A DNA stretch of 14,449 nt from NCBI GenBank assembly GCA_031284345.1, contig JAITAC010000067.1:1-14449 (forward strand). The letters are read 5' to 3'. Source of the DNA: Holosporaceae bacterium. GTDB lineage: Bacteria; Pseudomonadota; Alphaproteobacteria; UBA3830. The notes below the pieces were generated by a model. It searched no databases. It had not been told where the DNA came from and saw nothing but the letters and a program-made list of their open reading frames with translations. The position numbers were made by a program, and so were the translations under genes. Positions 2,503 through 10,053 of this stretch are shown here, piece by piece (position 1 is the first letter of the stretch; every line of letters begins with the position of its first letter).

Positions 2503-4770
2503 CTAGCTCCAGCGAAGGTGATATACCTCCTGCTGCCCAAAGCTTTTGGCCAGCGAAATCATGCCGACGTACTCGGTGGAATAGCGTTCATAGTATTTCA
2601 GTCCCTTTTGATTATATTCATTTTGCTCATCGTTGGTCTCTCCGTGCAGAAGCGCCACAAATTGCTGGGTGGCGTAAACCTGTCCCACCGTGGTAACCGG
2701 CTCCAGACGCGCCGCTCGGTTAATATGACCACCGTAGAAGTTCATTTTCTTTATGAAAGGATCTTCGGCAATAAATACCGGACCAGAATGCAGTGATATG
2801 CGCGCCCGAATGGGAAACGGAAATTCCGGGTACTTTCTTCCGAGATTTTCTATAATATCACAGTAGCGCAGTCCGAAATCGGCGATTTTGATGGCGCTGT
2901 CCGCTACGGCAAAAATAGCGTCTCCCCAGGTGTTTAGGGACTCCAAAGTGACTCCAATTTTGTCCATGGCCGCCTGAAGCTTCCCAAGAAAATCTAAAAA
3001 CGACGGAATATGTTCGTCCTGCAGCTTGCTGTAGCCGGATAAATCCGAGAACATCATGGATTTTATAACACGATCCGGAGATTTCGCTATAAACGGATCA
3101 AAAGAAAGAGTCCCCTTTTGAATTTTGATGAGAGCAGGCTCGATTTTTTCGGACACGCTCCCTCCGGAGATTTCATCCAAATCAATGAGATGCAGGGTGC
3201 TGATATTGGACCATCTGTCTATGAAATCAGCAGGACCTCCCGGCATGGAATCCGTTCTGGAGTGCCAAACGGCCATTAAATGCGGCTCCGTAGTGAGAAA
3301 TTTGCCCCTCATGACGGCGCTTCCCTGCATGACGTGGTTGGAAAAACGATAGAGCATGTCGTGACCCAAATACCGATCTTCGCAGGCAAAACTCACGGAA
3401 TGAGCGTTCTGAAGTGCCTTCTCAAACCTTTTTTCCCAGCGAGGTCCTGCGTGTCTGACGTTATTTTCCACAAAGTCGGAAATCGCAAACGGCAAAATAA
3501 TATTGACCTCTCCGCCAATGCTCTGGAGCGCCTCTATGAAAATTAAATCCGCACCGCAGGACGCTGAGCTATAGCCTATTTTGGCGTTTATACTCTTGAG
3601 TTTATCCACAATAATTCTCTTGACGTCCGCTTCGATTTCCTGCGGAAACAACGAAATCTGAAAACTCGGATGATCTATGGAGTGTCCCGTAAACACCACG
3701 ATCGTAGGCGGCGTCAGTATCTCCAGAGCTTGGTTGGGGACCTTAAAACCCGCCTCCCGAAGAAAATACAATTGCTGTCTGGCCGCCACAATGGAGATAT
3801 AATTTTCGTTCTCGCTCTGCTTCATGGCTTCTTGATATAATTTACAGGCGTCGTCCTCCCGCCCCAAAAGCAATTGCGCCTCCGCAAGATTGATCAATTC
3901 CTGAAACGACGCTTCAAGACCAAACGGAGGCAATAGCCGAAGAACACTGGCCGATAATTTCTTCGCTTGATCATCATCTCCGGTCAGCCACGATAACCAA
4001 GCGGCGTTTATGCCGGTGCTGGTCTTCTGGTCTCTTTGGAATGAAGCGAAATACAACTCCCTTGATATTTCAAGATCTCGGCAGTGATGCGAATATTTCC
4101 AGGATTCCCGGAAAATATGCCCGAGACCGGCAATGGTCGCCGGAAGTCCGCTTTGGAGAAACCTGCTATTTCTCAGATCTTCGACGGTCATCATCATTTT
4201 CCCGCTGGCTTCGTCCAGTTTTGGCGCAACGCCGAGAATCGGATAGATGAGCTTGCGAGACTCCTCTACGGCCCCGGTCTTTAGCAGCACTAGCGCATAA
4301 GCCTGCGCAAGATTCTCATTGTTCGGATTTTTACTGAAGGCTTTTTTGGCTATGGCATGCGCTTTGAACATGTGTCCCGTGGCAATCAGTGTCATTATAT
4401 GGTCTTCGATTTTTATGCCCGAAGCGTCTGTCACATTGTCGTCGTCATCGTCGTCGTCGTCATCCTCTTCTTCAACAGGTTGAGCAACAATAGCAGCTTC
4501 CGGAGTAGATCCCGCAGCAGCTTCCGCCGTAGATCCCGCAGCGGCTTCCGGAGTAGATCCCGCAGCGGCTTCCGCCGTAGATCCCGCAGCGGCTTCCGCC
4601 GTAGATCCCGCAGCAGCTTCCGCCGTAGATCCCGCAGCGGCTTCCGGAGTAGCTTCCACAGACGGCGCCACAATATTATCATCTGGGCTATTCGTTTCAG
4701 TGGTTTTATCGGTATCATTTGGAGAATCGTTATCTTTATTTGCATTATCTGTTGTGTCGTTATCAGACAT
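2503..4770 (-). CDS. TPR/TRAFs-binding-like + SLOG-like + class III adenylate/guanylate cyclase signalling protein
   Basis: The product is a cytosolic signalling protein of 755 residues from the ATG at 4768-4770. That start has a strong GGGAGGGG Shine-Dalgarno, whereas the longer frame to 4824 has none. Order: acidic, disordered N-terminus; six-copy PEAAAGST/AEAAAGST repeat (42-93); nine consecutive Asp (103-111); helical TPR/TRAFs-binding (DUF4071-like) region at about 115-350; a SLOG-like Rossmann domain at about 355-465 (FTGHS, SCGAD, ILPF); and a class III cyclase domain at about 568-712. Cyclase metal ligands are present as Asp576 (FSDLSGYS) and Asp617 (WGDA), and the transition-state pair is Asn684/Arg688 (HINRAARLEP). 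The usual purine-selecting Lys and Asp are Asn613 and Asn677, so cAMP versus cGMP cannot be assigned. It probably makes a cyclic nucleotide in response to a nucleotide-like ligand or partner. It is divergent from the receiver/kinase gene at 4915. Confidence 0.85.
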   Translation of the reverse strand: MSDNDTTDNANKDNDSPNDTDKTTETNSPDDNIVAPSVEATPEAAAGSTAEAAAGSTAEAAAGSTAEAAAGSTPEAAAGSTAEAAAGSTPEAAIVAQPVEEEDDDDDDDDDNVTDASGIKIEDHIMTLIATGHMFKAHAIAKKAFSKNPNNENLAQAYALVLLKTGAVEESRKLIYPILGVAPKLDEASGKMMMTVEDLRNSRFLQSGLPATIAGLGHIFRESWKYSHHCRDLEISRELYFASFQRDQKTSTGINAAWLSWLTGDDDQAKKLSASVLRLLPPFGLEASFQELINLAEAQLLLGREDDACKLYQEAMKQSENENYISIVAARQQLYFLREAGFKVPNQALEILTPPTIVVFTGHSIDHPSFQISLFPQEIEADVKRIIVDKLKSINAKIGYSSASCGADLIFIEALQSIGGEVNIILPFAISDFVENNVRHAGPRWEKRFEKALQNAHSVSFACEDRYLGHDMLYRFSNHVMQGSAVMRGKFLTTEPHLMAVWHSRTDSMPGGPADFIDRWSNISTLHLIDLDEISGGSVSEKIEPALIKIQKGTLSFDPFIAKSPDRVIKSMMFSDLSGYSKLQDEHIPSFLDFLGKLQAAMDKIGVTLESLNTWGDAIFAVADSAIKIADFGLRYCDIIENLGRKYPEFPFPIRARISLHSGPVFIAEDPFIKKMNFYGGHINRAARLEPVTTVGQVYATQQFVALLHGETNDEQNEYNQKGLKYYERYSTEYVGMISLAKSFGQQEVYHLRWS
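4492..4647 (-). repeat. 24-base coding tandem repeat (EAAAGST[A/P])
   Basis: Six and a half copies of a 24-base unit (ccgcagcggcttccg(c/g)(c/a)gtagat on the plus strand) encode (A/P)EAAAGST in the linker of the cyclase protein. The unit keeps the frame, so copy-number change would only alter linker length. The opposite strand reads as an Arg/Ser-rich open frame, which is an artefact of the repeat. Confidence 0.9.
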
Positions 4771-4914
4771 TGTTGCCCCTCCCATAAAATTCGTTTGCGT
4801 ATAGATTTCTTCCATAATAATCAAAAAAAATTAAAAAATAGTAAAAAATATAAATTTAAAATAATTTTTAACTACATTGGATGTAATATAAATCTAAGCA
4901 AAAGGTCAGTAAAA
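4771..4914. promoter_or_regulatory. Divergent promoter region between the cyclase and receiver/kinase genes
   Basis: These 144 AT-rich bases separate two oppositely transcribed regulators, whose proteins both begin M-S-D. On the plus side TAATAT at 4884-4889 is a possible -10, with no good -35. On the minus side TTGATT (complement of 4817-4822) and TATACG are a weak pair with 15-base spacing. I see no clear operator palindrome. Confidence 0.4.
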
Positions 4915-6159
4915 ATGTCAGATCCAGCAGTTGAAATATTTTACGTTCAAAAACCAGCAAAAGTTCTGGTGATAGACGGTCTCGAAAGCACAAGAGCTCT
5001 CCTGAAAAGACGACTCTCCATATACGGATACGAAGTGGTCACCGCCGAAGACGAAACCCGCGCCTACGTCGTGCTTAAAAAAGTCTCCGTCGATGTTATT
5101 TTTCTCAATATGTTCATCAATGAGAAAAGTACCCTCGGTCTTCTAAAACAACTAAAAGAAAACGACGACTATAAAAAAATTCCCATCATAATGATATCCA
5201 GCGATAGCGATCTCGACCTCATAGTCCGCTGCATCGAGGCCGGAGCCGACGACTACATGGTCAGACCACTAAACCAAACGCTCATGCGCGCTCGATTGGC
5301 TAACTGCGTCGCCCGTAAAGAAGCCTACGATAAAGAAATCGCCTATCTCGCCCAAATCGAACGAGGACAAAAACAAATAGCAGCTCAGGAAAAAATGGCC
5401 TCCATCGGCGTGCTCGTAAGCTCCATATCACAGGAACTGAAAAATCCTCTGCATTTTGTCATTAATTTCGCCGAAGTAAGCGCCGAAACATGCAGCGAAA
5501 TCGATGAAAAAGTAGAGGCCGATAAAGGAAGAATTGAACCAATTATCTACGAGTATCTATCAAAAAATCTTAAAAAGTTCCAATCAAATGTGCAAAAAAT
5601 AACCGAGTACGGCCGTAACGCAGATAAAATTCTGAGATTTATGTTGACGCAGTCCAGCGTTTCCGACGGAAAAAAGCATCCGGCTATTATCAACAAGATC
5701 ATTACCCAGACCATCAGCATGCTGTTGGCCTCCTATAAAATCAACGGTATTACCAATCCCCCGCGAATTATCACCCAATTCGACAATACGGTCCCCCTGA
5801 TCCCGGTGTCCACTCAGGCTGTCAGTAAAATGATCTACAATATACTGGACAACGCCATGTATTCGGTAATTCACAAATTCGAAGATATCTCCCAAGCTCG
5901 CATAAGCATAGAAACCATCAACACCGAATCAACAGTGGAAATAAAAATACGAGATAACGGATCCGGCATAAGCCAAGAAGTAAAATCCAAGATCTTTGAC
6001 CCATTTTTTACGACTAAACCCGCCGGAACCGGTCCCGGACTAGGATTGTCAACCTCCATCGAAGTGGCCGCCGACCACAGCGGAACAATTGTCGTCGATT
6101 CTATAGAAGGAGAATTCGCAGAATTCGTGATATCACTAGAAAAAAAACTCCCTGATTAA
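4915..6159 (+). CDS. Receiver + histidine-kinase-like protein lacking both phosphoacceptors (pseudo-kinase)
   Basis: The product is 414 residues from the ATG at 4915, preceded by AAAGG at 4900-4904. The open frame extends upstream, but only as an antisense shadow of the cyclase repeats. Residues 16-130 form a receiver domain (KVLVID, PIIMISS, AGADDYM). Residues 150-270 are the coiled-coil and dimerisation region, with an H-box-like segment ASIGVLVSSISQELKNPLHF. Residues 290-410 are a HATPase domain with N-box Asn313, G1 Asp347 (DNGSGI), F-box FDPFFTT and G2 GTGPGLGLS. The receiver has Asn65 in place of the phosphoacceptor Asp, Asp21-Gly22 in place of the acidic pair and Arg117 in place of the conserved Lys. 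The H-box has Gln173 in place of the phosphoacceptor His. There is no membrane segment. It therefore looks like a soluble ATP-binding regulator without phosphorelay chemistry, perhaps acting on the neighbouring cyclase. Confidence 0.85.
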   Translation: MSDPAVEIFYVQKPAKVLVIDGLESTRALLKRRLSIYGYEVVTAEDETRAYVVLKKVSVDVIFLNMFINEKSTLGLLKQLKENDDYKKIPIIMISSDSDLDLIVRCIEAGADDYMVRPLNQTLMRARLANCVARKEAYDKEIAYLAQIERGQKQIAAQEKMASIGVLVSSISQELKNPLHFVINFAEVSAETCSEIDEKVEADKGRIEPIIYEYLSKNLKKFQSNVQKITEYGRNADKILRFMLTQSSVSDGKKHPAIINKIITQTISMLLASYKINGITNPPRIITQFDNTVPLIPVSTQAVSKMIYNILDNAMYSVIHKFEDISQARISIETINTESTVEIKIRDNGSGISQEVKSKIFDPFFTTKPAGTGPGLGLSTSIEVAADHSGTIVVDSIEGEFAEFVISLEKKLPD

Positions 6160-9959: not shown

Positions 9960-10053
9960 GGAGGGATGGCCGAGAGGCTGAAGGCAGCGGTTTGCTAAAC
10001 CGCCATACGGTTGAAAAGCCGTATCGAGGGTTCGAATCCCTCTTCCTCCGCCA
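9960..10053 (+). tRNA. tRNA-Ser (anticodon GCU)
   Basis: The cloverleaf folds fully. Acceptor stem: GGAGGGA (9960-9966) with TTCCTCC (10043-10049), discriminator G and encoded CCA. D stem: GCC/GGC. Anticodon stem: GCGGT/ACCGC with loop TTGCTAA, placing anticodon GCT at 9994-9996. The long variable arm ATACGG/CCGTAT is characteristic of class II tRNA-Ser. T arm: GAGGG TTCGAAT CCCTC. It decodes AGC and AGU. Confidence 0.97.

Follow-up and report, generated by a model that had tools for sequence, protein, structure and literature searches.

LvrB of Leptospira is a Rec-controlled histidine kinase that is activated by phosphorylation of its receiver and autophosphorylates at His161; upon receiver phosphorylation, the coiled coil of the signalling helix forms and the catalytic domains are released (PMC13269768). 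DivL of Caulobacter, an alphaproteobacterial protein, is a kinase-dead histidine kinase able to signal by contact, which combines PAS domains with Tyr550, reads DivK~P and controls CckA (PMC4211667). RitR represents the aspartate-less receivers, its folded receiver domain having Asn53 (PMC4395418). Both pseudo-kinases and Asp-less receivers have been described before, while the protein considered here belongs to one family that is without both acceptors and has an invariant ATP site. Another relevant case is the GHKL protein NifL from Klebsiella, which makes a nucleotide-dependent contact with its partner with no phosphorylation of a histidine, and which differs from the present protein in its PAS sensor and its enhancer-binding partner.

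The window, that is, the whole stretch of 14,449 nucleotides that was analysed, encodes this protein next to a divergently oriented gene for a class III nucleotide cyclase (Table 1). The initial annotation had placed a receiver-kinase frame here and had named D21-G22, N65, R117 and Q173 at its key positions, all of which proved to be as described, coordinates included. The N, G1, F and G2 boxes that it had reported are present as well, and their cores (N313, D347, G349, G351, F364, K368 and G375-L378) show no variation in 70 family rows. A 600-aa frame starting at 4357 was rejected; it lies antisense to the cyclase gene, and the start at 4915 agrees with the homologues. There is also a HisKA remnant in the protein, for which the profile gives 19.7 bits, under the curated Pfam cut-off of 26.9, and no PAS domain was matched in it by Pfam. 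PADLOC matched the protein to PD-T4-6 (20.6 bits, residues 12-137), which was judged to be generic because the match is restricted to the receiver.

Table 1. Features of the pseudo-kinase gene and of its divergent neighbour (positions in the window).
Feature	Position	Strand	Details
Candidate partner, TPR - alpha/beta domain - class III nucleotide cyclase	2503..4824	-	Guanylate_cyc 37.8 bits, TPR_19 25.9 bits
Cyclase catalytic domain, residues 589-741	2602..3060	-	
Intergenic region of the two divergent genes	4771..4914	.	144 bp with the putative cyclase start ATG 4770
Pseudo receiver-histidine kinase	4915..6159	+	414 aa, REC-DHp-HATPase
Receiver domain, residues 17-128	4963..5298	+	Pfam Response_reg 67.3 bits (cut-off 30.2)
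Acidic pair position, Asp21-Gly22	4975..4980	+	
Asn65 (AAT), receiver phospho-Asp position	5107..5109	+	
Arg117, conserved Lys position	5263..5265	+	
Signalling-helix linker, residues 131-162	5305..5400	+	Boundaries chosen by us
H-box region, residues 168-180, VSSISQELKNPLH	5416..5454	+	
Gln173 (CAG), phospho-His position	5431..5433	+	
HATPase_c, residues 303-410, N/G1/F/G2 boxes	5821..6144	+	Pfam 59.6 bits (cut-off 26.4)

In the AlphaFold model (mean pLDDT 83.8, pTM 0.48) the protein divides into the receiver, one long helix and the HATPase part. The receiver has the expected fold, with alternating strands and helices at a pLDDT of about 90, the helix is unbroken over residues 121-202, and the ATP lid (residues 370-374) has a pLDDT below 50. 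LvrB is the closest protein of known structure, both by sequence (best PDB match, 7.6e-21) and by fold, the six best Foldseek matches among solved structures all being chains of LvrB 8vc9 (E 1.8e-24 to 9.7e-24). The two proteins have the same full-length order of REC, signalling helix, DHp and CA (PDB 8vc9, 9qqw and 9qr2 for LvrB). However, both acceptors are present in LvrB and missing in the window protein, to which the NCBIfam LvrB model gives 87.4 bits compared to a cut-off of 500. With DivL, whose structure 4q20 is the fold match at rank 45 (E 1.0e-12), the protein shares a replaced phospho-His and the retention of the other histidine kinase boxes, but DivL has PAS domains and Tyr550, and in the window protein the receiver is degenerate and the gene is linked to that of a cyclase. 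The receiver has the fold of the aspartate-less receivers and no phospho-Asp, with an Asn as in RitR; RitR is a DNA-binding regulator, whereas the window protein joins its Asp-less receiver to a kinase core that lacks the His. Finally, the canonical REC-HisKA-HATPase kinases P0120, P0119, P0241 and P0242, which form sister branches, have the same architecture at 34-44% identity but, unlike the window protein, keep Asp65 and His173. Classical phosphorylation on His and Asp, which had been claimed to be impossible for this protein, would indeed be excluded by its sequence. The same genome also encodes a 136-aa single receiver (L183, G000 C72:17914-18240) in which an Asn is aligned to the phospho-Asp.

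We now turn to the relatives. The family set consists of P0001-P0118 from the best 120 of 3035 homologues, with the window, fragments and near-duplicates included. Position 65 in these 118 listed matches is Asn in 105, Asp in 3, Glu in 2, Ala in 2, Ser in 1, Gly in 1 and a gap in 4, so that 105 of the 114 with a residue there have Asn, and position 173 is Gln in 77, Asn in 31, Arg in 4, His in 4, Glu in 1 and Asp in 1, with Tyr in none of the 118. The alignment, which had been proposed as a check, thus shows that the state is shared by a clade. The finding that His173 occurs in 4 of 118 and Asp65 in 3 of 114 of the listed relatives is in part counter-evidence, but the two are never found together. 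The opposite outcome named beforehand, relatives with the normal His and Asp together with a high dN/dS, is accordingly not what the data give, and since none of the 118 listed family proteins has both Asp65 and His173, the double acceptor loss is a feature of the clade and not decay. At position 22, the listed family proteins have Asp in 91 and Gly in 4 of 114, and at position 117 Lys in 99 and Arg in 14 of 115; the Asp-Gly pair and Arg117 of the window protein are minority states within the family. In the H-box, Glu174 is kept in all 118 listed proteins, and position 177 is Asn in 114, Thr in 3 and Ser in 1.

Of 104 comparison homologues (P0119, P0120 and P0241-P0342, the top matches when alignment A3 served as the search profile), 98 have Asp65 and 103 have His173, figures that are biased to normal kinases because A3 itself includes such kinases. 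The sole exception at position 173 is P0243, which has Glu at both sites and groups with P0112 and P0115. In all three of these proteins the receiver phospho-site is occupied by Glu, which may act as a phospho-mimic, and the His site is acidic too. At the level of codons, Asn65 is found in all 27 aligned coding sequences, a set that comes from 27 genomes of the family, includes the window and leaves out G028, and is encoded by both AAT and AAC; Gln173 is found in 21 of them, Asn173 in 5 and Arg173 in 1.

The frame had also been claimed to be under constraint, and the substitution rates agree with this. By the NG86 method, 8 of 351 pairs were computable with dS below 1.6, and in seven of these the whole-protein dN/dS is 0.031-0.076. 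The eighth, the very divergent pair G003-G018, has 0.254 (dN 0.389, dS 1.53), and we count it against the reading favoured below. For the window compared to G002, dN/dS is 0.076 for the whole protein, 0.152 for REC, 0.038 for DHp and 0.071 for HATPase, which amounts to strong purifying selection; between the same two genomes, neighbouring genes give 0.093 (cyclase), 0.085 (ArgS), 0.174 (SPOR) and 0.160 (RsmE). Glu174, Leu175, Pro178 and Leu179, which flank the H-box position, are each constant across the 70 family rows, while position 173 has an average variability, at the 54th percentile of column entropy. The signalling helix (131-162) is the most conserved of the four segments, with a mean column entropy of 0.75 bits, compared to 1.19 for REC, 1.41 for DHp and 1.49 for CA.

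The order of the two losses was considered with an IQ-TREE phylogeny of 81 sequences (71 of the 120 listed homologues, 4 added ones and 6 outgroups), from which columns 65 and 173 had been removed. The outgroups are 6 of 11 candidates from a scan of genome contigs, which yielded only relatives of 24-34% identity from other phyla; the other five, with partial coverage, were dropped. The outgroups and P0119/P0120 carry the normal Asp/His. The next branch, from family f3, has Asp/His in G037 and G040 and one Asp/Gln member (P0116, from G042), and the early family contains P0112 and P0115 (Glu65 with Glu or Asp173), P0106 (Asp/Gln) and P0113 and P0114 (Ala/Gln). Then comes G038 (Asn/Asn), whose placement is doubtful because of its branch length of 4.3, followed by the crown with Asn65, inside which the deep branches are weakly supported. 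Within the crown, His173 reappears in P0092, P0095 and P0096, adjoining an Arg member and with Asn65 still there, and Asp65 reappears once, in P0070; a fragment outside the tree, P0118, likewise has His173 with Asn65. Living relatives show intermediates, i.e. Asp with His, Asp with Gln, and Asn with Gln, Asn or Arg, so that one can ask which loss came first and also what remains for a two-component protein to do once phosphotransfer is gone. The existence of two Asp/Gln lineages suggests that the His was lost before the Asp.

The divergent gene is the best lead for a partner, on the basis of linkage and co-occurrence. If its listed start TTG 4824 is taken, the intergenic gap is 90 bp; the 755-aa record of the protein, P0121, begins 18 residues in. 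Promoter and terminator scans gave nothing beyond shuffled sequences, and in 4771-4914 there is no promoter match above shuffles. The model of the cyclase has a mean pLDDT of 80.0, and its best Foldseek match is CyaC (1wc1). In 59 aligned cyclases, picked from the window and the 120 listed homologues, Asp594, Asp635, Asn702, Arg706, Asn631 and Asn695 are identical in all 59. We take Asp594 and Asp635 to be the metal residues and Asn702 and Arg706 to be further catalytic residues, while Asn631 and Asn695, whose counterparts in solved cyclases are Lys/Glu and Asp, presumably sit at the base-selecting (substrate-selecting) positions. Judged in this way, the cyclase appears to keep its catalytic residues, and the putative Asn/Asn substrate pair is unusual. 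Of 49 genomes from the order, none had the cNMP-binding domain PF00027 above threshold, compared to 10 of 14 control genomes. No PADLOC match was obtained for the cyclase. The alpha/beta domain between the TPR part and the cyclase domain (3145-3732, minus strand) is well conserved and was at first thought by us to be a SLOG domain; it has no Pfam match even at an E value of 5, and among open-licence papers we found none on TPR-S/SLOG with a cyclase. A tandem repeat of 24/48 bp (4492-4652, 93% matches) encodes a disordered N-terminal part of the cyclase that is rich in Ala, Gly, Ser and Thr.

In family f1, the cyclase is the divergent neighbour of 25 of 34 kinase copies, the edges of the two matches lying 91-351 bp apart, and whenever the two share a contig (25 copies) they are divergent. 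The other nine copies are off the cyclase contig, some of them at contig ends. Five genomes (G010, G009, G001, G026 and G060) have both genes on separate contigs, and an assembly break is not a plain reason for all of them. Across the 40 f1 genomes, a count that includes an added fragment of G031, both genes are found in 32, neither in 6, the kinase only in G033 and the cyclase only in G017 (Fisher p 1.2e-5, kinship ignored). The six genomes without either gene are 85, 55, 91, 96, 80 and 94% complete, and joint absence is the weaker evidence because adjacent genes can drop out together from incomplete assemblies. For 26 kinase entries of the homologue lists there is a cyclase entry with exactly the same longest-contig size, compared to 0.45 expected with jittered sizes; this count and the 25 of 34 are not independent, since the window and other counted genomes are in both.

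Of the order's 49 genomes, 42 contain the cyclase and 35 the kinase (E 1e-20). In G038, of family f4, the divergent neighbour of the cyclase is a 377-aa REC-HK of 24% identity in which both acceptor positions are Asn. The f3 genomes carry the two genes on separate contigs, and those of f2 have the cyclase alone. In the class, the cyclase is present in 22 of 385 sampled genomes (E 1e-30). We have also considered that the same gene pair might occur with a working kinase in free-living alphaproteobacteria, and this is not borne out: at 16 other alphaproteobacterial cyclase loci taken from these genomes, several of which end near the gene, no REC-HK lies beside the cyclase, and locus L205, with two other HK-like matches, is the sole case of its kind among them. 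G059 and G055 likewise have no REC-HK there. The pair therefore looks like an invention of this order. A search of open-licence papers for a degenerate or pseudo-histidine kinase together with a cyclase found none. One kinase and cyclase (P0034 and P0218, on a contig of size 8474) are labelled Treponema; they are typical of the alphaproteobacterial family and are probably misbinned.

Because the acceptors are lost, the ATP pocket is kept, this state is preserved across the clade and the neighbour is a cyclase, a change of shape is probably at work here and not a transfer of phosphate. The reading that we tentatively prefer, giving it slightly less than an even chance, is thus a pseudo-histidine kinase that signals by ATP-dependent conformation, probably with the divergently encoded cyclase. 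The ATP-dependent scaffold or switch suggested by the initial annotation is thereby supported in part. In such a protein, the receiver would no longer be phosphorylatable and the DHp helix would be without its acceptor, while the dimer core, the signalling helix and the ATP pocket would be maintained. ATP or ADP, or else a ligand or a protein that the receiver binds, might then move the HATPase domains between a docked and a released state along the signalling helix, a movement that is borrowed from the active relative LvrB and would have a different trigger. The partner, most likely the TPR-class III cyclase, would read the state of the HATPase domains by contact. We infer ATP binding, dimerisation, physical contact and the direction of control. 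It is important to point out that kept ATP motifs do not prove tight binding, since DivL binds the ATP analogue TNP-ATP only weakly (PMC4211667). Several points count against the preferred reading. Linkage and co-occurrence do not equal contact, families f2 and f3 of the same order have cyclases that no pseudo-kinase adjoins, and pure scaffolding does not explain why Glu174 and Asn177 are kept.

These two H-box residues bear directly on the alternatives. In CrdS, the H-box Glu is reported to be needed for kinase activity only and the Asn for phosphatase activity only, and the His-to-Ala variant H371A retains much of its phosphatase activity (PMC3510030). By analogy, an Asn177 without the His would favour a phosphatase, and Glu174 would favour a structural role or a re-aimed kinase.

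The foremost alternative, itself an unlikely one, is a dedicated phosphatase. The protein would have lost its kinase activity and would dephosphorylate a response regulator made by other kinases, with Asn177 positioning the water, the His being dispensable and ATP or ADP acting as a gate. Such a role is possible because the H-box Asn, the phosphatase residue of HisKA proteins, is kept in 114 of the 118 listed proteins (Thr and Ser taking the rest) and because CrdS stays active without its His, and response regulators with an intact Asp are present in the genome (C27, C88, C104 and C2). However, the Glu174 that is invariant in the listed family is dispensable for the phosphatase reaction of CrdS, the linked gene is a cyclase and not a response regulator, and the protein's own receiver could not serve as the substrate. 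Moreover, DivL keeps the histidine kinase motifs, and no phosphatase activity is reported for it (PMC4211667).

Rather more doubtful is a reader of the DivL kind, in which the DHp surface would bind a phosphorylated response regulator of a different system and relay this to another kinase, the linkage to the cyclase being incidental. DivL does so with its phospho-His replaced (PMC4211667), and kinases with an intact His (C88, C104 and C85) are available in the genome. However, DivL has PAS and Tyr where the window protein has REC and Gln, and the linkage, the joint presence of the two genes and the conserved receiver fold would all be left unexplained.

Another option considered was a direct transfer of phosphate onto a partner, at a Ser/Thr or some other side chain, in the manner of PDK and similar GHKL protein kinases. 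The invariant ATP-box cores and Glu174, which is kinase-specific in CrdS (PMC3510030), are in line with it, and human PDK structures appear at Foldseek ranks 46 and 47; we nevertheless consider it very unlikely, as the fold is far closer to LvrB and ordinary histidine kinases and Glu174 may be structural. A long shot of the same kind is a kinase re-aimed, and not dead, on account of its retained kinase-specific Glu174 and ATP pocket, which would pass phosphate from ATP to the neighbouring cyclase or some other protein. This would make the two genes an ATP-to-second-messenger system, and its product would not be classical cAMP-CRP, given the Asn/Asn substrate pair and the 0 of 49 genomes with cNMP-binding receptors.

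A genome-wide loss of two-component chemistry was rejected, because the kinases C88, C104 and C85 keep their His and the receivers C27, C88, C104 and C2 their Asp (in this survey C131 matches weakly, while C120, C13, C23 and C83 lie outside the residue check). Finally, a relaxed or decaying kinase that has lost its function and drifted while the genome shrank is hardly conceivable and was rejected on dN/dS and conservation: the genome does measure only 1.05 Mb, the gene is absent from 6 of 40 family genomes, and in the window lineage it is the receiver that changes fastest (0.152) and in which more of the pocket residues are gone, but the frames are intact, seven of the eight pairs show strong purifying selection, N65 is retained across synonymous codon changes and the ATP-box cores are invariant.

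For the preferred conformational signalling, the link to the cyclase would give a protein of this type a concrete output, and would do so in a host-associated order, the Holosporales (PMC11909080). Elsewhere in the window, positions 218-793 on the minus strand encode a 191-aa protein that has no Pfam match and contains tandem repeats rich in Pro, Asn and Gly (period 60-69 bp), and a tRNA gene lies at 9960-10050 on the plus strand (Rfam RF00005, 54.7 bits).
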